Assembly (NCBI GenBank): GCA_017617475.1
Contig: JAFZWC010000048.1
Coordinates: forward strand, 1-46,147
Source: Bacteroidales bacterium
GTDB taxonomy: Bacteria > Bacteroidota > Bacteroidia > Bacteroidales > UBA932
Reading direction: 5' to 3'
Length of the DNA stretch: 46,147 nt
Part shown: positions 7,051 through 38,209 of the stretch, piece after piece
Layout: each line of letters opens with the position of its first letter
How positions within the stretch are numbered: position 1 is the first letter of the stretch
Translations under genes and position numbers: made by a program
Notes under the pieces: model-generated
Seen by the model: only the letters and a program-made list of their open reading frames with translations
What the model was told of the DNA's origin: nothing
Database searches by the model: none

Positions 7051-7709
7051 GGACGGGATAAGGTTTTCAACAGTTTGCTCAGGGCGAAGGGGCGCAGGGT
7101 GGTTTCTACCAGGGAAGCACCGGCCTGGAGGCATTCCAAGGCTTCTTCCGGGCTGTCTGCCGCCCCAATCACAGGATAGCGGTGCTGGGTTTCTTCCAGC
7201 ACCATGCCCACCTTTTTGGCCGGTACCACCACGGCGTCAATCCCGGATAACCGGCAATGGTCCAGGAGGGTATGAATCTCGTCAGGGGTGTGGCCGTGGG
7301 AAATCCTCAGGGCTATGGGGGTATAATGCTCATAGCAGAGGCGGAGGCTCACGACCTCGTCCAAGAGGACGGTAGTATCTGAAATATCGGTGGAATCAAT
7401 GCCGCGGTCTACGTCCGGGTCTATAATAATAAGGTCGGTAAAATCGTAGACCAGGGAGAAGGAGCGGGCTATGTCGGAGGAGACATTTACGGCCAGAACA
7501 GTCTTTCTGCGATATTCCTGCAGGCCCAGAATCCAGTTCAGGACATCGTTTTCCGGGGGAGTAAGGGTAACGAATCCGGCACCGGAGGTTCTGCAATCGC
7601 GTGGTTGGCGAACACTGGGACTCTGGCGGACGCCGACAGGGTATTTGAAGGAAAGCCCCACAACGTCGGTGTCCAGGGCTTTCTTCTTATGTGAACCAAA
7701 TAGAAACAT
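7047..7709 (-). CDS. Degenerate dihydroorotate-dehydrogenase-like (PyrD-fold) protein
   Basis: A 220-residue protein that reads like a shortened, eroded class 2 dihydroorotate dehydrogenase. VVGLSFKYPVGVRQS sits where the family has GLAAGFDKN; GAGFVTLTP matches the GFGFxEVGTVTP strand; PIALRISHGHT matches the PVLVKIAPDLT strand; GIDAVVVPAK matches the barrel strand before the FMN-phosphate site; and PVIGAADSPEEALECLQAGASLVE matches IIGVGGI plus DAxxxIxAGASLVQ. The segment that should carry the catalytic serine (NxSSPNTxGLR) instead reads IIDPDVDRGID, and the FMN-phosphate glycines are poor. I therefore doubt DHODH activity. The start at 7709 is preceded by a -7 box at 19 nt; the open frame continues upstream only as a shadow of the regulator gene. 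Overlap with cinA suggests a linked role, unknown. Confidence 0.6.
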   Translation of the reverse strand: MFLFGSHKKKALDTDVVGLSFKYPVGVRQSPSVRQPRDCRTSGAGFVTLTPPENDVLNWILGLQEYRRKTVLAVNVSSDIARSFSLVYDFTDLIIIDPDVDRGIDSTDISDTTVLLDEVVSLRLCYEHYTPIALRISHGHTPDEIHTLLDHCRLSGIDAVVVPAKKVGMVLEETQHRYPVIGAADSPEEALECLQAGASLVETTLRPFALSKLLKTLSRP

Positions 7710-11073: not shown

Positions 11074-12483
11074 ATGAGCAGAAAACGCATTGACCTGGTG
11101 CTGGAGAACGTGACCATTGAGGCGGTTGCGGCTGAAGGCAAAGCCCTCACGCATGTGGATGGCATGGTGGTGTTCGTAGACTTCGCCGTTCCCGGCGACG
11201 TTGTGGACATCCAGGTATACAAGAAGAAAAAGAATTACATGGAAGGCTTCATCAAGCGTATCGTAAAGCCTTCACCGCACCGTCTGGAGCCTTTCTGCGA
11301 GCATTTCGGCGTTTGCGGCGGTTGCCGGTGGCAGCCTTTGCCCTATGAGATGCAGCTGGAAGCCAAGCGTCAGCAGGTGGAAGACCAGCTGGTGCGTATC
11401 GGCCATCTTCAGGTTCCCGAAATTCGCCCTACACTCCCCTCCGAAAACACCCGTTATTATCGTAACAAGCTGGAATTCAGCGCTTCCTGCAGCCGATGGA
11501 TACTCAAAGATGAGGACCCGAACGCCCTTACCGAGCAGGAAAAAGTGGGTCTGGGCTTCCATGTGGGCAAGTTTTTTGACAAAGTGCTGGATATTAAGGA
11601 ATGTCATCTGCAGAAAGATCCATCCAATGCTATCCGCTTGCATATCAAGCAGTTCTGCCTGAATCACAACCTGGAATTCTATAATATCCGGGAAAACAGG
11701 GGCTTCTTCCGCAACATGTTTGTGAGAAGCACGGAAAAAGGCGAATTCATGCTCATTGTGGTGTTTGCCCGTGAAGACAAGAAAAACCGGACGGCCCTTC
11801 TGGACTCCGTGGCCCAGGCTTTTCCTCAGATTACCAGCCTCTACTACATTATAAACGAGAAGCTTAACGACTCCATATCGGACCAGTCCCCTGTCCTGTA
11901 CAAGGGCGAGGACGCCATCTACGAGGAAATGGAGGGCCTTCGCTTCAAGATCGGTCCCAAGTCCTTCTACCAGACCAATTCGCGCCAGGCCTACCGTTTA
12001 TACAGCGTTGCGCGCGAGTTTGCGGCGCTCACCGGAAACGAACTGGTTTACGACCTCTATACCGGAACGGGTACCATCGCCCAGTTTGTGAGCAAGAAGG
12101 CCTCCAAGGTAATCGGCATCGAATATGTGCCGGAAGCCATTGAAGACGCCAAGGTTAATGCCAAGGCCAACGGCATCACCAACTGCCTCTTCTTCGCCGG
12201 AGACATGAAGGATGTGCTTAACGAGGCCTTCATTGCCAAACATGGCCGGCCCGACGTAGTCATTCTGGATCCTCCCCGGGCCGGAATTCATCCGGACGTT
12301 GCCCAGGTAATCCTGAAAGCCGCCCCCGGAAGGATGGTGTATGTTAGTTGCAATCCGGCTTCCCAGGCCCGTGATCTGGCCATTCTGTGCCGGGATTATG
12401 AGATTACGGCCGTGCAACCGGTGGACATGTTCCCCCACACCATGCACGTAGAGAACGTGGTGGCCCTCAGGCGCCGCGCTTAA
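11074..12483 (+). CDS. rlmD: Class I SAM-dependent RNA uracil-C5 methyltransferase, RlmD/TrmA family
   Basis: A 469-residue RumA-type enzyme that methylates C5 of a uracil in rRNA (or tRNA). An N-terminal TRAM-like domain (residues about 1-65) is followed by the Fe-S cysteine cluster CEHFGVCGGC (Cys75, 81, 84; fourth ligand probably in IKECHLQ). The SAM-binding domain has VYDLYTGTGTIAQF and IGIEYVPEAIEDAKVNAKANG. Catalysis is marked by VILDPPRAGI and YVSCNPASQARDL, with Cys426 as nucleophile, and the C-terminal MHVENVVAL holds the general-base Glu. The exact target nucleotide cannot be assigned, so the gene symbol is a family-level label. Its TAA overlaps the convergent protease gene's stop by 4 bases (12480-12483). 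Confidence 0.9.
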   Translation: MSRKRIDLVLENVTIEAVAAEGKALTHVDGMVVFVDFAVPGDVVDIQVYKKKKNYMEGFIKRIVKPSPHRLEPFCEHFGVCGGCRWQPLPYEMQLEAKRQQVEDQLVRIGHLQVPEIRPTLPSENTRYYRNKLEFSASCSRWILKDEDPNALTEQEKVGLGFHVGKFFDKVLDIKECHLQKDPSNAIRLHIKQFCLNHNLEFYNIRENRGFFRNMFVRSTEKGEFMLIVVFAREDKKNRTALLDSVAQAFPQITSLYYIINEKLNDSISDQSPVLYKGEDAIYEEMEGLRFKIGPKSFYQTNSRQAYRLYSVAREFAALTGNELVYDLYTGTGTIAQFVSKKASKVIGIEYVPEAIEDAKVNAKANGITNCLFFAGDMKDVLNEAFIAKHGRPDVVILDPPRAGIHPDVAQVILKAAPGRMVYVSCNPASQARDLAILCRDYEITAVQPVDMFPHTMHVENVVALRRRA

Positions 12484-28750: not shown

Positions 28751-28786
28751 TAGTTTCGTGTACGTATACGTGCGCGAGTGACAAGT

Positions 28787-30976
28787 ATGGATTATACGCA
28801 GGCAAAACACAGGATTGAGCAGCTGAGGGCTATTCTCTGGGAGAACAGCCGGAAGTACTATGTAGAGAATGCGCCCACCATGAGCGACTACGAGTACGAC
28901 CAGCTGATGCATGAACTGGAAGATTGGGAGCGCCGGTATCCGCAGTACGATTCCCCGGACTCCCCCACCCACCGGGTGGGCTCGGACCTGGAAGAGAAGG
29001 CGGAAAGCGGCGGTTTTGCCAAGTACCCTCACAAGTACCCCATGCTGTCCCTTTCCAATACGTATTCCATCCAGGAAGTGGAAGAGTTTGCCGAAAGGGC
29101 CGCCAAATCGCTGGACAAACCTTTTACGTATTGCTGCGAACTCAAGTTTGACGGCACGGCCATTTGCCTGACTTACAAGAATGGCCGATTGTTCCGCGCC
29201 CTCACCCGCGGAGACGGGGTGCAGGGAGACGATGTAACCCGCAACGCTTTGCAGATCGCCAGCATCCCTGAGGCGCTGAAAGGCAGCGGCTGGCCGGAAG
29301 AGTTCGAGATTCGCGGCGAGGTGCTCATGCCTTACGAGTCCTTCGACCGCCTCAATGCCGAACGCGAGGCCCAGGAAGAGCCCCTGTTTGCCAATCCCCG
29401 CAACGCCGCCAGCGGCTCGCTAAAGTTACAGGACCCTGAGGAAGTGGGCCGGAGAGGCCTTTTCTGCACCCTCTACCACATCCCTACAGGCCAGGTGGAC
29501 TTTCCCACGCACGACGCCGCTCTCAAGGCCGCTGCGGAGTGGGGACTCCCCGTATCGGCCCACAGACGCATCTGCAGCAATATCCAGGAAATCGAAGCCT
29601 TCATAGAGCATTGGGATACCGCCCGCAAGGAGCTGCCCTTTGCCACGGACGGCATTGTAATTAAAATCAACGAGATGGACTGCCAGCAGGACCTGGGCTA
29701 TACCGCCAAGAGTCCCCGCTGGGCCGTTGCTTATAAATTCAAGGCCGAACAGGCCTGCACGCCCATCCTGAGCATCGATTACCAGGTAGGCCGTACCGGT
29801 GCCGTTACCCCCGTGGCCAATCTGGAGCCCGTGCTCCTGAGCGGCACCATGGTCAAGCGCGCCACCCTGGTGAATGAAGACCAGATCCGTGCCTTGGACA
29901 TCCATGAAGGAGACTGGGTATACGTGGAAAAAGGCGGGGAAATCATTCCCAAGATCACGGGTGTGGAAGAGTCCAAACGCCAGCCCGGGGCCGTCATTCC
30001 CCGTTTCCCCCAGGTGTGTCCGGATTGCGGAACCCCTCTGGTGAGGGAAGAAGGCGAGGCCAAGTGGTTCTGCCCCAACCGGCAGGGCTGCCCCACCCAG
30101 ATCAAGGGCCGGCTGGAGCATTTCGTAAGCCGCAAGGCCATGAACATCCTTTGCGGCGAAGCCACCATCGAGCAGCTCTACAACCTGAATCTGGTCACTC
30201 TCCCCTCCCATCTGTATACCCTGAAGGCCGACCAGCTGGTGATGCTGGAAGGCTGGAAAGACCGCGCCGCAGCCCGTTTCCTGGATTCCGTGAAGGCATC
30301 TCTGGACGTGCCTTTCGAGCGGGTTCTCTTTGCCATAGGCATACGCTTCGTGGGAGAAACTACGGCCCGCGACGTCGCCCGCCACTTTGGCTCCATCGAC
30401 GCCATAGCCTCGGCCACCAAAGAAGAGCTTCTGGAAGTTCCGGAGGTGGGAGAAGTCATTGCCGACAGTATCTTCCACTACTTCCTGGACGTGGAGAATT
30501 GCCGGGAGGTGGAAGCCCTGAGGGCGGCCGGCCTCCGCATGAGCATGGAAGAAGGCGCCGGAAAGCAGTCCGATGCCCTTGCGGGAAAGTCCATAGTCAT
30601 AAGCGGCAACTTCAGCATCTCCCGAGATGCCATGAAGGCGCTTATAGAAGCCCACGGAGGAAAGAACAGTTCTTCAGTGAGCGGTAAGACAGATTACCTC
30701 CTGGCCGGCACCAAGCCCGGTCCGGAAAAACTGAAGAAGGCGGCCGATTTGGGTATCCAGGTGATTGATGAGGAAACCTTCATGAGGATGATAGGAGATA
30801 CGCTCGCTTCGCTCGGTATGACAAGCGACGCTGTTCCGGAGGAAGGTTCCCTTCCCGGAGCATCGGCCCTCTTTTTAGCGGAGGGAAGGGAACCTTCCGC
30901 AGGTAGCGGAACTTCCGCAGAACCTTCCGCAGGAAGCGATCTGTCCACAGGTACAATTGAACCCACATTATTCTGA
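28787..30976 (+). CDS. ligA: NAD-dependent DNA ligase with an unusual C-terminal tail
   Basis: A 729-residue NAD+-dependent ligase that seals nicks in replication and repair. Domain Ia (DYEYDQLMHELEDWERRYP) is followed by the adenylation motif CELKFDG with Lys120, then the OB fold (GRTGAVTPVANLEPV), a Zn finger (CPDCG through FCPNRQGC), helix-hairpin-helix repeats, and a BRCT domain (SIVISGNFSISRDAMKALIEAHGGK). After the BRCT comes an extra tail of about 58 residues rich in Ser, Ala, Gly and Glu, with EPSAGS repeats. Its DNA consists of a repeat-family fragment, a long hairpin and tandem repeats. ATG 28787 was preferred; GTG 28778 is in frame 9 bases earlier. The TGA overlaps the next ATG (TGATG). 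Confidence 0.93.
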   Translation: MDYTQAKHRIEQLRAILWENSRKYYVENAPTMSDYEYDQLMHELEDWERRYPQYDSPDSPTHRVGSDLEEKAESGGFAKYPHKYPMLSLSNTYSIQEVEEFAERAAKSLDKPFTYCCELKFDGTAICLTYKNGRLFRALTRGDGVQGDDVTRNALQIASIPEALKGSGWPEEFEIRGEVLMPYESFDRLNAEREAQEEPLFANPRNAASGSLKLQDPEEVGRRGLFCTLYHIPTGQVDFPTHDAALKAAAEWGLPVSAHRRICSNIQEIEAFIEHWDTARKELPFATDGIVIKINEMDCQQDLGYTAKSPRWAVAYKFKAEQACTPILSIDYQVGRTGAVTPVANLEPVLLSGTMVKRATLVNEDQIRALDIHEGDWVYVEKGGEIIPKITGVEESKRQPGAVIPRFPQVCPDCGTPLVREEGEAKWFCPNRQGCPTQIKGRLEHFVSRKAMNILCGEATIEQLYNLNLVTLPSHLYTLKADQLVMLEGWKDRAAARFLDSVKASLDVPFERVLFAIGIRFVGETTARDVARHFGSIDAIASATKEELLEVPEVGEVIADSIFHYFLDVENCREVEALRAAGLRMSMEEGAGKQSDALAGKSIVISGNFSISRDAMKALIEAHGGKNSSSVSGKTDYLLAGTKPGPEKLKKAADLGIQVIDEETFMRMIGDTLASLGMTSDAVPEEGSLPGASALFLAEGREPSAGSGTSAEPSAGSDLSTGTIEPTLF
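30796..30824. repeat. Dispersed repeat fragment within the ligA tail
   Basis: AGATACGCTCGCTTCGCTCG then GTATGACAA resembles the repeat at 38183-38214 (ispG end) and the arms at 42904-42977. It encodes the first part of the extra LigA tail, DTLASLGMTS. Confidence 0.6.
30833..30912. repeat. Long hairpin element in ligA tail with conserved 18-nt apex
   Basis: GGAAGGTTCCCTTCCC (30841-30856) pairs perfectly over 16 bp with 30883-30898. GTTCCG (30833-30838) and CGGAAC (30907-30912) form an outer stem. The apex contains CATCGGCCCTCTTTTTAG (30861-30878), identical to the apex of the ispG hairpin. Here it is read as A-S-A-L-F-L-A. Confidence 0.85.
30891..30933 (+). repeat. Short tandem repeats at the ligA 3' end
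   Basis: AACCTTCCGCAGG occurs at 30891 and 30921, with a one-base-shorter AACTTCCGCAG at 30910. The first copy overlaps the hairpin's right arm. They encode repeated EPSAGS. Confidence 0.7.
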
Positions 30977-32013
30977 TGTTCAAGCGTTTGGGGCATAAAC
31001 TAGCTGTGATATTCCGGTGGATTTCCATCTGGATTACCCGCATCGTGCGCTTCCTCATGCATGACATCTGGCTGCTCAACGAGTCCGATTTCTCCCGCTG
31101 GAAGGCCCGTATGGTGCGCGATGCCAAGACGGTCATCCTCATGATGAATACTTTCTCGGCCCAGAAGATCGGGTATCAGGTGACGGCCCTCGCCTACCGC
31201 AGCATGATGGCGGTGGTTCCAGCCATAGCCATAGGCTTTTACCTGACGGACGGCCTTGGCCTCCGGGACAAGTTTGCCGAGATTCTGGTGGCCAACCTGG
31301 GCCAGCAGCGTATTGTGGACACGCTTCTGCAGGCGGCCGACAATATTGTGCGTACGGCCGAAAGCGGCTGGTTCGGCTTTATTTCCATGGCCTCCTTCGT
31401 CTGGATTGTGCTGTCTCTGATGATAACCGTTCGGCAAGTGTTCAATAATGTATGGAAGGTGGACCGCGAGCCCAGTTTCTTCAAGATGATAGGCATTGTG
31501 ATAGGAATCACCATCCTGGCGCCTTTCGTGGTTATCATCTTTTTCTCGGGCTCGGTGGTGTATTCCCACGTCCTGGACCTGCTGTTCCCCAGCAAACTCT
31601 TCTTCTCCGACCATCTGAAGACCTTTGTGAGCTGGCTGGTGTTCGCGGGAATCATCGTCCTTATCCTGAATACCATGTACAAGTATATTCCCGGCACGCA
31701 TGTGCGCAACAGACATGCCCTGAAGGCGGCCCTAATCTCGGGTCTGGCCTTTGCCGCCGTGCAATACCTGTATCTGGAAACGCAGGTGATGGTGGCCAAG
31801 CAGAGTGCCGTGTACGGTGCCCTGGCCGCCATTCCCCTGTTCATGATATGGCTTAATATTGGATGGGCCATTATCCTATACGGAGCAGAACTGTCCTATG
31901 CTTTCCAGAATGTGGACCAGCATGGGATTACTATAGCAAAACTGGATGAAATGAATGCGGAAGCCGTTCGCGAGCGCAAGGAACGGCTCCATCAAAATAC
32001 CATGACGATATGA
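30976..32013 (+). CDS. YihY/BrkB-family inner-membrane protein
   Basis: A 345-residue polytopic membrane protein of the YihY/virulence factor BrkB family. After an amphipathic N-terminal region it has the family segment TFSAQKIGYQVTALAYRSMMAVVPAIAIGFYL, then further helices (WFGFISMASFVWIVLSLMITVRQVFNNVW, MIGIVIGITILAPFVVIIFFS). The conserved YKYIPGTHVRNRHALKAALISGLAFAAVQYLYL is followed by IPLFMIWLNIGWAIILYGAELSYAFQN near the C-terminus. The family's molecular role is unsettled. The start overlaps the ligA stop (TGATG) and its stop overlaps the rel start (ATGA). Confidence 0.92.
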   Translation: MFKRLGHKLAVIFRWISIWITRIVRFLMHDIWLLNESDFSRWKARMVRDAKTVILMMNTFSAQKIGYQVTALAYRSMMAVVPAIAIGFYLTDGLGLRDKFAEILVANLGQQRIVDTLLQAADNIVRTAESGWFGFISMASFVWIVLSLMITVRQVFNNVWKVDREPSFFKMIGIVIGITILAPFVVIIFFSGSVVYSHVLDLLFPSKLFFSDHLKTFVSWLVFAGIIVLILNTMYKYIPGTHVRNRHALKAALISGLAFAAVQYLYLETQVMVAKQSAVYGALAAIPLFMIWLNIGWAIILYGAELSYAFQNVDQHGITIAKLDEMNAEAVRERKERLHQNTMTI

Positions 32014-34256
32014 GTTTTTCTGAGTTTGGTGAAAAAGACTACGAGGTTATTTCCCGGGATTGGGAGGTGCTGAAGGCATCGGCCCAGAAGCGATGTGCCA
32101 ACATGCAGGAGATGGAGGTGGTGAAACGGGCCTTCGAATTCGCTAACGACGCGCACCGTAACGTGCGGCGCCGCAGCGGCGAACCGTACATGCTCCACCC
32201 CATTGCCGTGGCCCAGATTGTGGTGGACGACATCGGCCTGGGATACAAGTCCATATCGGCCGCCCTTCTCCATGACGTGGTGGAAGATACGGACTATACC
32301 GTAGAAGATATCCGGGAGCATTTCGGAGACAAGATTGCGTCGCTGGTAGACGGCCTCACCAAGATTAAGAACGTACTGGATACGGAGCAGAAGACCCGCG
32401 GAACCGACATTTCCCAGCAGAGCCTTCAGGCCGAGAATTTCAAGCGCATCCTCCTCACCCTTAACGACGACGTGAGGGTGGTTCTCATCAAACTGGCCGA
32501 CCGCCTGCACAACTGCCGCACCATCGAGCACATGCCGGAGCACAAGCGGGACAAGATTCTGTCGGAAACCATGTTCATCTTTATTCCGCTGGCCCACCGC
32601 TTGGGTCTGTACAACATCAAGACGGAACTGGAGAACATCTGGCTGCGGTATAAGGAACCGGATGCCTATGCCGATATCAAAGCCCGTATCGACCGCGGAA
32701 TCGAGGAAAAAGGCCGGGAAATGACCGAATTCATTGTGCCTATAGAGGCGGCACTGGAGAAGGCCGGCTTCCATTATGAAATCAAAAAGCGCATCAAGAC
32801 GCCCTACTCGGCCTGGCAGAAAATGCAGACCAAGGGCGTGAGCTTCGAGGAAGTCTACGACCTTTATGCCATCCGCATCATCTTCGATACCGACCCCAAA
32901 TCGGCCGAGAGCGAGCGTGACCAGTGCTACCATATCTTCTCTATCATTACCGGCATATACCGTTACATGCCGGAGCGCCTCAGGGACTGGGTAAAACATC
33001 CCAAGTCAAATGGTTATGAGGCATTGCACTGCACCCTGCTCAGTAATTCCGGCGTGTGGGTGGAGGTCCAGATCCGCACCCGGCGTATGGACGACATTGC
33101 CGAAAAGGGTATTGCCGCCCACTGGAGCTACAAGCAGCACGGCATCATGGGCGAAGGCGATTACGAGATGGATGCCTGGCTGGACCGCATCAAGGGTATT
33201 CTGGTGAATCCGGACGTGAATGCCCTGGAACTGCTGGACATTATCCACAACGACCTTACGGCCACCGATATCTATGTGTTCACTCCCCGGGGAGAACAGC
33301 GCAGCCTGCCCAAGGGCTCCACGGCCCTGGACTTCGCCTACGCCATCCATACCGAAGTGGGCAACAAGGCCATTGCCGCCAAAGTGAACCAGAAACTGGT
33401 GAAACTGAGCCAGGAGCTCAAGACCGGCGACAAGGTGGAAATCATTACGGCCGAAGACGGAAAGCCGCAGCCGGAATGGCTCAAGTTCCTGCAGACGCAC
33501 CGTGCCCGCACCGTGGTGACGGACTATTTCAAGACCCAGCGCAAGCAGACGGTGGATTATGGCCGGAATGCCCTGGAATCGGCCATCAAAGATCTGGGGT
33601 ACGAAACCGATGAAGCGGTGCTGCAACGTCTGGAGGTGGCCTATGGCATGGATACCCGTGAAGAACTGTATTATGGCATTGGTATTGGCCAGGTTAGCCT
33701 GGATAACCTGTCGGAGGTTCTGAAGCGTTCCTCCGGAGGCAAGCTTTCCTGGATCCGGAAGATGTTCCGCTCCGAGTCCAAGGAAGAGGAAAAACCCGGC
33801 GAGACGTTTATCATCGGCTCCACGGACCCCAACGCCCCCCATTTCTCCATCGCCACCTGCTGCAACCCCATTCCCGGCGACGCCGTGGTGGGCATCAAGG
33901 CCCCGGACGGCACCATAACCGTACATAAGAAAACCTGCGCCGTGGCCGACCGGATCGCTGCCCGTCATGGGGACTGGGTGGTGGTGCCCAAGTGGTTGGA
34001 GCAGGCCGAAGAGACTTCCTTCCTGGTGCGTATAAGCCTGAAAGGCCTGGACCGCGTTGGCATGCTTAACGAGATTACCCGCCGCGTTTCGCTGGTTATG
34101 GGCGTGAATATGCGCCGGCTCAACCTGGTGGCCGAAGGAGGCCTGTTTGAAGGCGATATCGACCTGTACGTGAGCTCCAAAGATGTCCTGGACAAGATGA
34201 TCAAGAAACTCTCTTCCATTGAAGGAATCGAGAATGTAACCCGAAAAGAACTATGA
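32010..34256 (+). CDS. rel: Bifunctional (p)ppGpp synthetase/hydrolase (Rel/SpoT family)
   Basis: A 748-residue stringent-response enzyme of full length. The hydrolase HD domain is intact: His49, PYMLHP, ALLHDVVEDTDYT with His88-Asp89, and KLADRLHNCRT. The synthetase domain follows (AWQKMQTKGVSFEEVYDLYAIRIIFD, GYEALHCTLLS, VQIRTRRMDDIAEKGIAAHW). Next come TGS (VFTPRGEQRSLPKGSTALDFAYAIH), a Zn-finger/helical region (PHFSIATCCNPIPGDAVVG) and a C-terminal ACT domain (VRISLKGLDRVGMLNEITRRVS). Both synthesis and hydrolysis of ppGpp are expected. It is embedded in a chain of overlapping genes between brkB and a lipoprotein gene. Confidence 0.95.
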   Translation: MSFSEFGEKDYEVISRDWEVLKASAQKRCANMQEMEVVKRAFEFANDAHRNVRRRSGEPYMLHPIAVAQIVVDDIGLGYKSISAALLHDVVEDTDYTVEDIREHFGDKIASLVDGLTKIKNVLDTEQKTRGTDISQQSLQAENFKRILLTLNDDVRVVLIKLADRLHNCRTIEHMPEHKRDKILSETMFIFIPLAHRLGLYNIKTELENIWLRYKEPDAYADIKARIDRGIEEKGREMTEFIVPIEAALEKAGFHYEIKKRIKTPYSAWQKMQTKGVSFEEVYDLYAIRIIFDTDPKSAESERDQCYHIFSIITGIYRYMPERLRDWVKHPKSNGYEALHCTLLSNSGVWVEVQIRTRRMDDIAEKGIAAHWSYKQHGIMGEGDYEMDAWLDRIKGILVNPDVNALELLDIIHNDLTATDIYVFTPRGEQRSLPKGSTALDFAYAIHTEVGNKAIAAKVNQKLVKLSQELKTGDKVEIITAEDGKPQPEWLKFLQTHRARTVVTDYFKTQRKQTVDYGRNALESAIKDLGYETDEAVLQRLEVAYGMDTREELYYGIGIGQVSLDNLSEVLKRSSGGKLSWIRKMFRSESKEEEKPGETFIIGSTDPNAPHFSIATCCNPIPGDAVVGIKAPDGTITVHKKTCAVADRIAARHGDWVVVPKWLEQAEETSFLVRISLKGLDRVGMLNEITRRVSLVMGVNMRRLNLVAEGGLFEGDIDLYVSSKDVLDKMIKKLSSIEGIENVTRKEL

Positions 34257-36055
34257 GCCATCCTTTGAAGAAATTCCTGCCGCTTATTCCGGCTACCCTC
34301 ATCCTGGGCTCCCTGATGTTCCCCTCGGGCTGCGCCAATACCACCACGCCTCCGTCAGGCGGCCCCAAGGACACCATTCCCCCGGTGCTCACCAAGGTGG
34401 CGCCCATGCCGGCAACCGTGAACGTGTCCACCAAGACAAAACTCCGCTTCACCTTCAACGAATACGTGAAAATCAAGGACGCCAATGCCATTTACCTGTC
34501 CCCTCCGCTGGAGAAGAAGCCCAAGGCAGCCATTCACGGCAAGTCGCTGGACGTGAGTTTTGAAAGCGACCTGGACAGCAATACCACCTATACCCTGGAC
34601 CTGACGGGCGCCATTGCCGACAACAACGAAGGCAACCTGTTCCCCGGCTTCACCCTGGTGTTTTCTACGGGTGACAAGATTGATTCCATGTGCGTGACAG
34701 GCCTGGTTCAGGACTGCAACACCCTCATGCCCATCAAGGGTGCCACCGTGCTCCTGTACAAGGACCATTCCGATTCGGCCGTCTTCCTCAAACGGCCCGT
34801 GGCGGCCGCCAAGACGGATGACTGGGGCTTCTTTGCCATCCGCAACATCCCGGATACCCTTTATCGGGTATATGCTATCAAGGACGAGAACAACAACAAC
34901 AAATACGACCCCGAAACCGAGCGTATTGCCTTCCTCGACAGCCTTCTGAGACCCAGCATCGTCTTCAACGACAGCCTCTACGAGTTCAAGAAATTCGACA
35001 TGAAGGATACCGCCCTCTGCCTGGCGCGCCATGCCCAGATTGAGCTGAACCTCTTCCGCGAGCGCCCGTCCAAACAGTATATCGTGAAGAAGGAAAGGGT
35101 GGGGCCGCGCACGGCCTACCTCACTTTCATGGCTCCCGACGCTGTAATCCACGATATGCGCGTCAAGGGCCTCCCGCGCGAAAAACTCATCCGCCAGTTC
35201 AATCTGCAGAAGGACTCCCTGGAACTGTGGGTGAATGACCAGCGAAAGATGCCGGACACTCTCCAGCTGGTGATCAAGTACGACAAGACGGACACCAGCG
35301 GCAAGCTCCGTCCTCAGGAAGAGCTGGTCAAGCTCACCTACTCCAAGGAGCAGAGGGCCGAGATGATGAAAAAGGAGACCAACTACCGGGACCGCAAGCA
35401 CGAGGATACCATTGCCGTGATGACGACATCGGCCGATCCCACCACGGTGGAGCAGTACGGCTTTGAGATAGAATTCAAGTATCCGCTCATCGAGTCGGCC
35501 TGGGATTCCCTTCAGTTCCGTAGCGTGAACCCCCGGCAGCAGGAAGCCAAGGGCAAGGTGAAGGTTCTTCACGACAGTACCAACCTGCGGCATTTCCGGG
35601 TGATGCCTTCGGAACCCTTCCAGGTGGGGTATGACTACTACCTCAAGATTCCTCACCGCAAGTTCCGCGACGTCAACGGTTTTTATAACGACAGTACCCA
35701 GCTTAAGGTAACGCTCCCCACGGACGACAAGCTCAGTTCCATTACCTTGGAACTCAGTCATGTACACAACCGTTATCTGGTGGAACTGCTCAACGAAAAG
35801 CGGGACAAGGTAATCCGCAGTTTCCTGGTGGACAAGAGCGGCCCCGTTGTGTTCCCCTACCTCAAGCAGGGGGCCTACTGTATCCGTATCACCGAGGATA
35901 AGAACCGAAACGGAATGGTGGATACCGGTAATCTGCTGGCCAAAAAACAGCCCGAAAAGGTGCATTTCTTCAAGTTGGAAGACAAATTCCTGATCAAGGT
36001 GCTGGAAAGGTCCGAGATGGTGTGGAAGATTAATTTGGAGGAGATGTTCCAATGA
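34253..36055 (+). CDS. Ig-like-domain lipoprotein of Bacteroidota type
   Basis: A 600-residue lipoprotein: signal peptide with LMFPSGC lipobox (Cys near residue 27), then TTTPPSGGPKDTIPPVLTKVAP, the very characteristic start of a Bacteroidota envelope lipoprotein with an Ig-like (Big_5) domain. That domain continues as STKTKLRFTFNEYVKI and NTTYTLDLTGAIADNNEGN. A carboxypeptidase-regulatory-like or prealbumin-like segment follows (VTGLVQDCNTLMPIKGATVLLYK ... IKDENNNNKYDPE), and the C-terminal half is beta-rich. Function is unknown; it is probably attached to the outer membrane. Its start overlaps the rel stop and its stop overlaps the next start, both by 4 bases. Confidence 0.85.
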   Translation: MSHPLKKFLPLIPATLILGSLMFPSGCANTTTPPSGGPKDTIPPVLTKVAPMPATVNVSTKTKLRFTFNEYVKIKDANAIYLSPPLEKKPKAAIHGKSLDVSFESDLDSNTTYTLDLTGAIADNNEGNLFPGFTLVFSTGDKIDSMCVTGLVQDCNTLMPIKGATVLLYKDHSDSAVFLKRPVAAAKTDDWGFFAIRNIPDTLYRVYAIKDENNNNKYDPETERIAFLDSLLRPSIVFNDSLYEFKKFDMKDTALCLARHAQIELNLFRERPSKQYIVKKERVGPRTAYLTFMAPDAVIHDMRVKGLPREKLIRQFNLQKDSLELWVNDQRKMPDTLQLVIKYDKTDTSGKLRPQEELVKLTYSKEQRAEMMKKETNYRDRKHEDTIAVMTTSADPTTVEQYGFEIEFKYPLIESAWDSLQFRSVNPRQQEAKGKVKVLHDSTNLRHFRVMPSEPFQVGYDYYLKIPHRKFRDVNGFYNDSTQLKVTLPTDDKLSSITLELSHVHNRYLVELLNEKRDKVIRSFLVDKSGPVVFPYLKQGAYCIRITEDKNRNGMVDTGNLLAKKQPEKVHFFKLEDKFLIKVLERSEMVWKINLEEMFQ

Positions 36056-36912
36056 GAAGAGTGATTGCCATAATGACGGCCCTGCTGTGCTGCAGCTGGA
36101 TGTCCCGGGCTCAGGTGAATCTGGAAGAAGAGTTCTTCTCCCTGCCGGATACCGTTACCAATTCGTATCTGGACAGCGTCAAGGTTAACATTGCCGCCCC
36201 CAACGATTATTGGATGATCGGCGTATTCGGAGGCGCCTCCCTGCAATACGGCTACTTTAACCCCGACCGCTATGTGCTCTGGCAGCCCCAGTATCCCGTA
36301 TACGGATTCTCCATTGTGCGCCAGTTTACCATGTTCGGCATTTTCCCCAACATGGGCATGGAAATCGGCGCCCAGATGAACTACGAAGGCTATGAGTTCA
36401 AACGGAACGGGGAAACGGGATACCGCTTTACGGAATCCGGTGCCTACAAGACCCTGATAACGGTTCCGGAGGTGTTTTTCCTGTCCCATTTCCACATTGA
36501 CATGGGCGAGCATTTCAAGATTATGGCCAAAGTGGGTATTTACGGCGGTTACCGCATGAAGATCCACCGCGTGCTGGACGACGATTTTGTAGGAATTCCG
36601 GAATATGAAGAGTATGTGGATGCCTTCCGCGATTACGACCGCCGCTATTCCTACGGCGTAGAGGGAGGGCTTGGTATGGGCTTGATGTTCAATCCCTTCG
36701 AGTTCCACCTTATGGTTAACGGAAAATGGAGCTGGAGCTCCTTCTGGCAGCCGGATTACGTGAGCCCCTGGTATTACCGCTTTGCCTATCCCCTGGATGC
36801 AGGTGTTACCTTTGGCGTTTACTATCAATTGACACCCCGATACGGCCACACCCGCGGGCAACTGAAGAGACTGGCGCGCAAGATGATGGCCGAACAACAG
36901 CAAAATCCCTAG
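36052..36912 (+). CDS. Exported outer-membrane barrel-like protein, function unknown
   Basis: A 286-residue protein with a signal peptide (about MRRVIAIMTALLCCSWMSRAQ) followed by alternating beta-type sequence: DYWMIGVFGGASLQYGYF, MGMEIGAQMNYEGYEF, KIMAKVGIYGGYRMK, YGVEGGLGMGLMF and DAGVTFGVYYQLTP. These are spaced like barrel strands in a porin-type (PorT-like) protein. The C-terminus ends in a charged helix. No family is assigned with certainty. It overlaps the lipoprotein gene by 4 bases and ispG follows after 1 base. Confidence 0.75.
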   Translation: MRRVIAIMTALLCCSWMSRAQVNLEEEFFSLPDTVTNSYLDSVKVNIAAPNDYWMIGVFGGASLQYGYFNPDRYVLWQPQYPVYGFSIVRQFTMFGIFPNMGMEIGAQMNYEGYEFKRNGETGYRFTESGAYKTLITVPEVFFLSHFHIDMGEHFKIMAKVGIYGGYRMKIHRVLDDDFVGIPEYEEYVDAFRDYDRRYSYGVEGGLGMGLMFNPFEFHLMVNGKWSWSSFWQPDYVSPWYYRFAYPLDAGVTFGVYYQLTPRYGHTRGQLKRLARKMMAEQQQNP

Positions 36913-36913
36913 T

Positions 36914-38209
36914 ATGAGAGAGATATTGGAAACCCGTACCGTTCGCGTAGGCGACAATGTGCTCATCGGCAGCGGCCACCCCATTGTGGTCCAGACCATG
37001 TGCAACACCCATACTTCCGACATCGACGCCACGGTGGCCCAGTGCAAGCTTCTGGCGGCCGCCGGCTCCCAGCTCATCCGCATCACCGTGCCCGCCATGG
37101 CCGATGTGAAGCACCTGGAAGAGATTAAGAGACGTCTCAGGGCCGATGGCATTAACACTCCCCTGGTGGCCGATATCCACTTTTCATCCGAGATTGCCAT
37201 GGCCGTTGTTCCGGTGGTGGAGAAGATCCGCATCAACCCCGGCAATTTCCACCCCGATCACGACAAAGCCAGGGCCCTCTTCGGCCAGTTCCTGGGCCTT
37301 TGCAAGCAGTACGACAGGGCCATCCGCATAGGGTTGAACCATGGCTCGCTGGGTAAATACATTGTGGAGAAGTATGGCAATACCCCTGAAGCCATGGCCC
37401 TGGCAGCCATGGAATGGGTAGAGATGTGTATTGAGGCGCAATTCTACAATGTAGTAGTGTCCCTCAAGGCTTCCAATACCGTGGTCATGGTGAACGCCTA
37501 CCGCAACCTGGCCCGGATGATGAAAGAGCGCGGCGTGGTGTTCCCGCTGCATGTAGGCGTTACCGAGGCCGGCAACGGCGACAGCGGACGCATCAAGAGC
37601 TGCGTGGCCATCTCCACTCTCCTGGAAGAAGGAATCGGCAATACCATTCGCGTATCCCTCACCGAACCCCCGCAGAATGAACTTCCTGTGGCCCAATACC
37701 TGGCCCATCGTTATGGTCTTTCGGAGCAAGTTTCGAAGGACATCGGCCCTCTTTTTAGTCCTTCGGAACTTGCTCCGGAAGACCTGAGGATCCTTAAGGC
37801 CGCGTGCGACTACGGCGCTCCCCTTCTTAATCATGAGATAGACGATATCCCCATTGAGGACGAATACCTCAAGGACGAGATTCTGCAGGCCTGCCGCCGC
37901 AAATTCTACAAACCCGAGTACATAGCCTGCCCCGGCTGCGGCCGCACGCTGTACAACCTGGAAGAGACCTTCAACCGTGTAAAGGCGGCCACCGGCCAGT
38001 TCAAGGATGTGGTGATAGCCGTCATGGGCTGCATTGTGAACGGTCCCGGAGAAATGGCCGACGCCGACTACGGTTACGTGGGCGAAGGCGCCGGCAAGGT
38101 CACCCTCTACCGTAAAAAAGAACCCGTCCTCAGGCATATACCCGAAGACGAGGCGGTTGAAAAACTGGTAGAGTTAATTAAAACAGATTCTTCGCTACGC
38201 TCAGAATGA
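36914..38209 (+). CDS. ispG: 4-hydroxy-3-methylbut-2-enyl diphosphate synthase (flavodoxin/ferredoxin type)
   Basis: IspG/GcpE converts MEcPP to HMBPP in the MEP isoprenoid pathway. The N-terminal TIM barrel is intact (VQTMCNTHTSDI, VADIHFSSEIA, KIRINPGNF, IRIGLNHGSLG, VTEAGNGDSGRIKS). The Fe-S domain has Cys339 and Cys342 in ACPGCGRT, Cys373 in MGCIVNGPGE, and Glu380. At 431 residues it is longer than the E. coli enzyme (about 370) but lacks the large inserted domain, which I recall as common in Bacteroidota and plant enzymes. Only a linker of about 90 residues separates the two parts, and a hairpin element encodes residues 268-290 of it. The last eight codons and stop come from a dispersed repeat. 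Confidence 0.93.
   Translation: MREILETRTVRVGDNVLIGSGHPIVVQTMCNTHTSDIDATVAQCKLLAAAGSQLIRITVPAMADVKHLEEIKRRLRADGINTPLVADIHFSSEIAMAVVPVVEKIRINPGNFHPDHDKARALFGQFLGLCKQYDRAIRIGLNHGSLGKYIVEKYGNTPEAMALAAMEWVEMCIEAQFYNVVVSLKASNTVVMVNAYRNLARMMKERGVVFPLHVGVTEAGNGDSGRIKSCVAISTLLEEGIGNTIRVSLTEPPQNELPVAQYLAHRYGLSEQVSKDIGPLFSPSELAPEDLRILKAACDYGAPLLNHEIDDIPIEDEYLKDEILQACRRKFYKPEYIACPGCGRTLYNLEETFNRVKAATGQFKDVVIAVMGCIVNGPGEMADADYGYVGEGAGKVTLYRKKEPVLRHIPEDEAVEKLVELIKTDSSLRSE
37715..37784. repeat. Long hairpin element inside ispG with conserved 18-nt apex
   Basis: Positions 37715-37741 pair with 37758-37784 over 27 bp with only two G-T wobbles and no mismatch, leaving a 16-nt loop. The apex with its closing pair is CATCGGCCCTCTTTTTAG (37741-37758), identical to ligA 30861-30878, whereas the stems are unrelated. 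Here it is read as D-I-G-P-L-F-S in a different codon phase from ligA. Confidence 0.9.

Follow-up and report, generated by a model that had tools for sequence, protein, structure and literature searches.

In-frame hairpins with a near-constant core and site-private paired arms in protein genes of Bacteroidales

Rickettsia palindromic elements (RPEs) are conserved in sequence across the whole element. According to excerpts of a published description, they are short palindromic repeats of about 150 bp, present in many copies in unrelated genes, many of them in frame and adding a peptide (PMC10969869). Excerpts of two other papers report that template switching homogenises hairpin arms and inverts spacers (PMC8604942), and that it creates and maintains hairpins (PMC8794818). 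In the mitochondria of nematomorphs, as far as the excerpted text goes, long perfect inverted repeats lie within translated genes, with both arms coding for conserved parts of the protein (PMC6649704). Here we describe two hairpins within the ligA and ispG genes of contig JAFZWC010000048.1, together with the family of in-gene hairpins to which they belong, carried by uncultured bacteria of the gut. The window is the whole 46,147-nt stretch analysed, in which all positions are numbered, and sites, proteins and genomes are named with L, P and G, respectively. With a probability of roughly 0.6, we read the hairpins as copies of a clade-specific, in-frame mobile palindromic element, the arms of which are homogenised and the core of which is flipped by intrastrand template switching.

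RPEs are the nearest known kind. As in RPEs, a palindromic structure is inserted in frame in unrelated protein genes (the window genes, rsmH, and the Pfam-named hosts of the related genome G021). The hairpins measure 70-90 nt (87 nt for the rsmH insert, 70 nt for the ispG hairpin), whereas RPEs, which can be compared by their excerpted description only, measure about 150 bp and have a conserved peptide. In contrast to whole-element conservation, the core here is 98.8% identical between copies and the arms are 53% identical and private to each site. Because of this shorter length and the site-private arms, we do not file the hairpins as RPEs. Homogenised arms are shared with quasipalindrome correction as the excerpts present it, and an inverted spacer, seen here at protein level, may be shared as well; that process concerns native inverted repeats, whereas here it would act on a dispersed family with a constant core. 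Unlike the nematomorph palindromes in the text cited, the hairpins are added inserts in variable loops with a common core. No description of such a Bacteroidales element was found in the open-licence literature, subscription papers lying outside the search.

The features of the window that concern us are as follows.

28778..30976, + strand: ligA, NAD-dependent DNA ligase (NCBIfam NF005932/TIGR00575), hosting copy 1 in its variable C-terminal tail
30836..30903, + strand: copy 1 hairpin, arms 30836-30856 and 30883-30903 (inverted-repeat search, perfect-stem script, fold)
30861..30878, + strand: copy 1 apex CATCGGCCCTCTTTTTAG, read ASALFL (pattern match)
36914..38209, + strand: ispG (NCBIfam TIGR00612), with copy 2 in a loop that is variable among relatives
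37715..37784, + strand: copy 2 hairpin, arms 37715-37741 and 37758-37784 (inverted-repeat search, fold)
37741..37758, + strand: copy 2 apex CATCGGCCCTCTTTTTAG, read DIGPLF (pattern match)

Both apices match CATCGGCCCTCTTTTTAG with 0 mismatches, and the window contains just these two matches at up to 3 mismatches, against 0.10 expected. The arms of the ispG hairpin are 27 nt long and 93% complementary; those of the ligA hairpin are 21 nt long and 90% complementary, and enclose a perfect 16-bp inner stem (30841-30856 with 30883-30898). An earlier note, made from the letters alone, had reported an identical 18-nt apex on long stems, read in different codon phases within genes that it named ligA and ispG, and each of these points stood, the gene names being upheld by the NCBIfam families. 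Its statement that the stems share no sequence did not: the left-arm stretches TTCCGGAGGAAGGTTC (ligA) and TTTCGGAGCAAGTTTC (ispG) are identical at 13 of 16 positions, which only 7 of 5000 shuffles equalled. As the note had anticipated, orthologues are without the segments. Among 23 aligned LigA orthologues, all 21 that are readable at the site lack copy 1 (one reads X and one is truncated), and copy 2 is missing from 27 of 27 aligned IspG orthologues, some of which hold other inserts. The ispG segment is also found in proteins P0121 and P0122 (99-100%) and P0123 and P0125 (91%), and IspG relatives at 94% identity have a short loop in place of copy 2. An Rfam scan of the window returned no family at gathering scores. 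Part of the ligA right arm, GAACCTTCCGCAGG (30890-30903), recurs at 30920-30933 as a small duplication in the LigA tail.

The window core, hereafter the A type, is repeated in other genomes. The exact 18-mer was found in 7 contigs of species genomes. Two of them, L001 (RUG12971) and L005 (RGIG7856), are from Bacteroidales or Bacteroidia metagenome-assembled genomes and carry it at hairpin apices; the other 5, outside Bacteroidales, show no such hairpins, and by our own estimate about 7 would be expected by chance. When up to 3 mismatches were allowed, the two Bacteroidales genomes that hold L001 and L005 gave 58 matches (39 in G001, 19 in G002), compared with 2 (2 and 0) for the reversed pattern that served as control. 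All 58 were read for stems, L020 being cut by a contig end, and scored as paired bases among 18 opposed positions, with 4050 random places as background. Stems of at least 14/18 pairs occur at 41 of the 58 matches (32/39 in G001, 9/19 in G002) and at 3 of the random places; stems of at least 12/18 pairs number 34 in G001 and 13 in G002, and 41 in the background. On these counts, chance was rejected as the source of the repeats. The many copies per genome foreseen in the earlier note are thus present, and the self-complementary flanks that it expected at most copies are found at most of those in G001 and at about half in G002. Read by eye, the A copies give the consensus CATCGGCCYTCTYWTYAG. Pairing reaches the edge of this consensus in some stems; in others the conserved apex is longer (CCTRAGGGAG..CGACCGMAGG). 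The arm sequences vary between copies. Tandem part-duplications of the core and one arm were seen at L037 and L041 (45 nt apart) and in fmt of G001 (L264), giving a repeated ADKKADAP-like peptide.

G021 is the nearest genome to the window among 30 compared (LigA 85%), and the degenerate 18-mer, at up to 1 mismatch, is absent from it. A long-stem search of 366 kb of this genome returned two hairpins with another common apex, the core of which, TCCGCGTCGCTTCGCGACCCTGTACGGGCAAATGCTCC, we call the B type. Across 10 genomes, a 22-nt part of TCCGCGTCGCTTCGCGACCCTGTACGGGCAAATGCTCC at up to 3 mismatches matched 14 times in G021, 3 in G007, once in G001 and, as a variant, 14 times in G022; the reversed control matched once in the same genomes, in G016. 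B hairpins share the architecture of the A type, with a constant core between matched arms, and the family is larger than the earlier note had claimed. By eye only, the reverse complement of the B core resembles the window core at GGAGCAT..GCCC..GCGAC. The family looks narrow in distribution. Among 40 relatives of G001, A-pattern matches (three in total, with one mismatch) occurred in only two, none of them such hairpins. In an even sample of 393 genomes across the order, none had the exact 20-nt A pattern and G021 alone had the exact B pattern; this sample contains few close relatives and does not include the B-core carriers G007, G022 and G046. Many further carriers turn up in protein searches. 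A phage origin was set aside, IMG/VR giving no exact match to one 18-nt pattern per core.

The contrast between core and arms is clearest in an alignment of 13 B copies (12 from G021 and 1 from G007; 4 of the 17 matches in these genomes did not fit a strict core with flanks and were left out). The 38-nt core has a mean identity of 98.8%, compared with 53% between copies for the 19-bp arms. Nevertheless, 241 of 247 arm pairs are Watson-Crick, with 0 G-T pairs and 6 mismatches, and all 22 counted pairs vary on both sides. Cells altered on both sides number 91 (90 of them in the arms), against 3 altered on one side; shuffles gave 27.4 +/- 4.8 double-sided cells, with none of 500 reaching 91, and sliding the structure gave at most 23. 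Counting further pair types gives a weaker signal, which 29 of 500 shuffles equalled. Arms of the A type were analysed in 31 copies from G001, 9 from G002 and the 1 from the window; in the A classes, Watson-Crick pairs amount to 286/324, 125/162, 83/90 and 184/198, with 11, 11, 3 and 10 G-T pairs. With all five classes pooled and the arms trimmed, 893 of 971 pairs are Watson-Crick, 33 G-T, 17 A-C and 28 others, and pairing declines beyond about 18-22 bp. Arm homogenisation with few single-sided intermediates is therefore seen in G021/G007 and is weaker in the A classes. A soft arm consensus runs across copies and across both core families (by eye, and from cross-family arm scores). We judge the earlier description of a kept apex with locally matched arms to be right, the core being near-constant and the arms private but paired.

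Such a conserved unpaired core between covarying stems might also arise from selection for an RNA or cruciform DNA structure with a recognised apex, compensatory changes preserving the pairing, and the excess of G-T over A-C among arm mismatches (33 vs 17) leaves room for selection on RNA pairing. We regard this explanation as unlikely, given the G021/G007 arms, where G-T pairs are absent and single-sided changes nearly so, and given that copies lie in unrelated genes and in both gene orientations. Every one of the 40 A copies that have more than 1 kb of context and a stem reaching 12/18 lies within an open frame of at least 150 residues, with 14 frames running with the core and 26 against it, and this use of both orientations speaks against a role at the RNA level. 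A long frame need not be a gene: by our own reading, L013 lies just beyond the end of a purine nucleoside phosphorylase-like gene. The B hosts of G021, as assigned by Pfam with names partly from our own reading, include metG, a major facilitator superfamily transporter, prephenate dehydrogenase, atpB, a flavin mononucleotide (FMN)-binding protein, fabD, dnaX, rsmH, uvrA and a DHH protein. Pfam matches were obtained for 9 of 10 G021 hosts plus 1 more, L160 having none; the MG2-like host of L144 was not among the hosts scanned.

All six frames of the B consensus are free of stops, yet the 12 G021 copies in the examined hosts all keep to a single phase on each strand, with PEGDTLS..ERVSPS-like arms; the exception is the G007 copy L136, in a Pfam-named DUF6259 gene, which uses another phase. 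Stop-codon avoidance was accordingly rejected as the sole cause of the fixed phase, which would reflect a preference for the hydrophilic peptide or else be largely inherited. Also against a fixed phase are three A copies (window ispG, L009 and L011), which are read in an IGPLF-like phase.

Occupied and empty sites show what was inserted. In rsmH, G021 reads AEQLRRQ-KAGPEDSASASLRDPVRANAPAESSGPAV-FDG where G007 reads AAQLGVQ-FDG, so that the insert of 29 residues, or 87 nt, is the whole hairpin with both arms. This contradicts the insertion of a core plus one copied flank, which the earlier note had suggested, as a fold-back event in which the core lands beside a host segment that is immediately copied in inverted form, leaving one arm native and the other copied. 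Several observations are in keeping with such an event. In IspG, RYGLSEQVSKDIGPLFSPSELAPEDLRIL of the window corresponds to RYSSAPSVSLSEREETIL in P0128 (94% identical), so that the window protein is longer by a net 11 residues; this is below the size of the 70-nt hairpin, and part of the hairpin therefore replaces or includes native sequence. In rsmH, the left arm mirrors the outermost right arm (GGCCCCGCC, GPA), which lies within GPAVFDG, a motif also found beside unrelated inserts; in prephenate dehydrogenase the right arm ends in S-D-K, near the S-E-K of empty relatives, and is likewise mirrored. On these grounds, the outermost arm bases at rsmH may include native flank and its mirror image. 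Proteins P0005-P0010 retain AESSGPAV (AESSDPAV in one) without the core and left arm. Still, both arms are missing at rsmH in G007 and others, the empty form of prephenate dehydrogenase has neither arm, deletion also explains the one-arm proteins, and the soft arm consensus extends across copies and both core families. We therefore consider fold-back insertion quite improbable. With a consensus between arms and a whole-hairpin insert, insertion with an inverted flank copy fails at rsmH, and template-switch synthesis survives as an account of arm matching. The interpretation in the earlier note is partly supported in this sense, and the checks that it proposed on copy number, flanks and orthologues mostly came out in its favour.

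Short one-arm forms were noted in prephenate dehydrogenase (P0292, P0299, P0311 and others, EERASVPEK-like) as well as in the RsmH proteins P0005-P0010 (AESSGPAV-like), and their sequences suggest that the core and one arm were deleted.

Depending on the relative, a given loop of fmt, uvrA, rsmH or prephenate dehydrogenase holds an A core, a B core, other repeats or nothing. The arms could, alternatively, be built or mutated by a transposition step at each insertion, with the core acting as a cassette exchangeable between existing hairpins. This would suit a near-identical core whose arms, within one genome, disagree at close to half of their positions. It would also suit the loops of rsmH, prephenate dehydrogenase, fmt, uvrA and the MG2-like gene that hold A in some relatives and B in others, and the proteins P0056 (A) and P0061 (B), which the RsmH tree joins as sisters (support 100/99) and whose hosts are 99.0% identical. 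The arms of P0056 and P0061 differ, however. Where distant genomes have A and B at a common site, the arms rank 10, 17-29, 15-23 and 4 of 50, no closer than elsewhere, and at A/A shared sites they rank 13, 3 and 11 of 49 (L017/L022 were not ranked). Nor did the Y1-transposase matches of five genomes yield an enzyme for the transposition step, and we think this account rather unlikely. A swap of A and B cores on inherited arms is not supported at the DNA level, and the shared loops look like a limited set of permissive sites with turnover. In a speculative account, which we hold to be unlikely, the hairpins are standing docks in essential genes in which short cores are exchanged or inverted, and replication rewrites the arms; if it were true, a whole clade would be re-editing the linkers of its housekeeping proteins with a few interchangeable modules.

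Other repeats occupy the same loops. One coding for CHSERSEE(S) in frame is found in the ispG loop of G002 (L057, at the position of the window hairpin), in P0111 (RsmH) and in P0281 and P0283 (prephenate dehydrogenase). A PGQAGNDV/PGQAGHDG-like in-frame repeat peptide is present in P0124, P0126, P0127 and P0129 (IspG), P0244 and P0267 (prephenate dehydrogenase) and P0117 (RsmH), and a third, DFARDDKGEARDD-like, in the RsmH loop of one tree clade. The uvrA gene of G002 (L246) has a large palindromic insert built on GGACCAGGTCC, in the loop that holds A or B hairpins in G001/G021.

The flipping of the core is seen in host proteins, for which the best 120 of 8000 scored were used; the trees, with the insert removed, were built from 106 of the 120 prephenate dehydrogenase proteins and all 120 RsmH proteins. 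Core labels were set by our own patterns, which left 2 and 10 rows unlabelled and P0048, P0052 and P0095 doubtful (SSLRDPSH, not the usual B core). Five cases, in rsmH and prephenate dehydrogenase, involve relatives in which similar arms enclose a B core of opposite sense. Flipping the 38-nt core within the arms of G021 rsmH predicts PEDSAGAFARTGSRSDAEAESS, and P0003, with a host 96.6% identical, reads PKDSAGAFARTGSRSDAETESF. Arms next to opposite cores were compared among those proteins for which both ends of the core could be located (31+7 and 6+6). The best partners were P0280/P0275 (score 85, next 54), P0278/P0260 (67, next 56), P0301/P0289 (65, next 41) and P0003/P0001 (77, next 29), and the opposite-core comparison of P0049/P0077 with P0021/P0089 gave 93-88, with the next at 42-40. 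P0275/P0280 (support 100/95) and P0077/P0089 (100/98) are sister pairs on the host trees. Taken together, all labels on the prephenate dehydrogenase tree require 25 changes, compared with 56.4 when shuffled.

Joint arm changes with few intermediates, and spacer flips, are reported effects of template switching, and for this reason we read the hairpins as a mobile element rewritten by that process. The element would be small and non-autonomous, about 70-90 nt, with a core of 18-38 nt set between an arm of about 18-27 bp and its mirrored counterpart. It would have spread within one Bacteroidales clade, inserting as a unit, the whole hairpin, and being tolerated in frame in loops and linkers of housekeeping proteins. 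After insertion the arms would drift, and a change in one arm would be copied to the other by intrastrand template switching during replication, as in quasipalindrome correction. The same events may flip the core and extend the stem by a few bases into the native flank. The family would then offer a natural series, at many sites and in several species, for watching arm homogenisation and core inversion within essential genes, and it suggests a route to multi-residue protein change without selection for the protein. It also raises the testable question of how a mobile repeat with a constant core comes to have different arms at every site.

Several results weigh against this reading of a template-switched mobile element. 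Seven of the 13 inverted-core proteins (P0277, P0279, P0288, P0317, P0055, P0061 and P0079) have no clear partner, and on the host tree P0021 falls apart from P0049/P0077. Nor does the inverted label cluster on the prephenate dehydrogenase tree, with 6 changes against a shuffled mean of 6.9 (55 of 500 as low), and core inversion is seen in proteins and not in DNA. A 98.8% identical core exceeds what neutral paired drift alone explains; its constancy goes beyond template switching and calls for a recent spread, homogenisation or selection for mobility. No target-site duplication is evident by eye at rsmH, where none was systematically sought. To these may be added the excess of G-T over A-C mismatches, the strong stems at only 9 of 19 matches in G002, and the arms at A/B and A/A shared sites, as ranked above. 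Lastly, just 1 of 13 Y1-transposase matches is near a copy (L199 in G022, with a B-type copy about 300 bp downstream).

Those 13 matches, 9 of them above the family cut-off, come from five genomes, all of which have Y1-transposase genes. In this, and in being short multi-copy palindromes, the hairpins resemble, as far as excerpted descriptions go, the repetitive extragenic palindromic (REP) sequences and their REP-associated tyrosine transposases (RAYTs). REP sequences are extragenic by name, whereas the 40 stem-bearing A copies with more than 1 kb of context are all in open frames. With one neighbour in 13 matches, RAYT is not supported as the mobiliser, and no parent transposon was found among the Y1-transposase matches of the five genomes. 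The Y1 genes at L196, L197 and L200 (G001, G021 and G007) are accompanied by palindromes of their own, for example aatacatttctcgttc..gaacgagaaatgtatt at L197, which is like others dispersed in G021; it seems that these genomes harbour REP-type repeats alongside the in-gene hairpins. Another dispersed family of G021 palindromes, GTGCGAGTAACGTCCC..GGGACGTTACTCGCAC, is found at L119 (G021:C3), at 2855-2950, 7417-7505 and 11169-11258.

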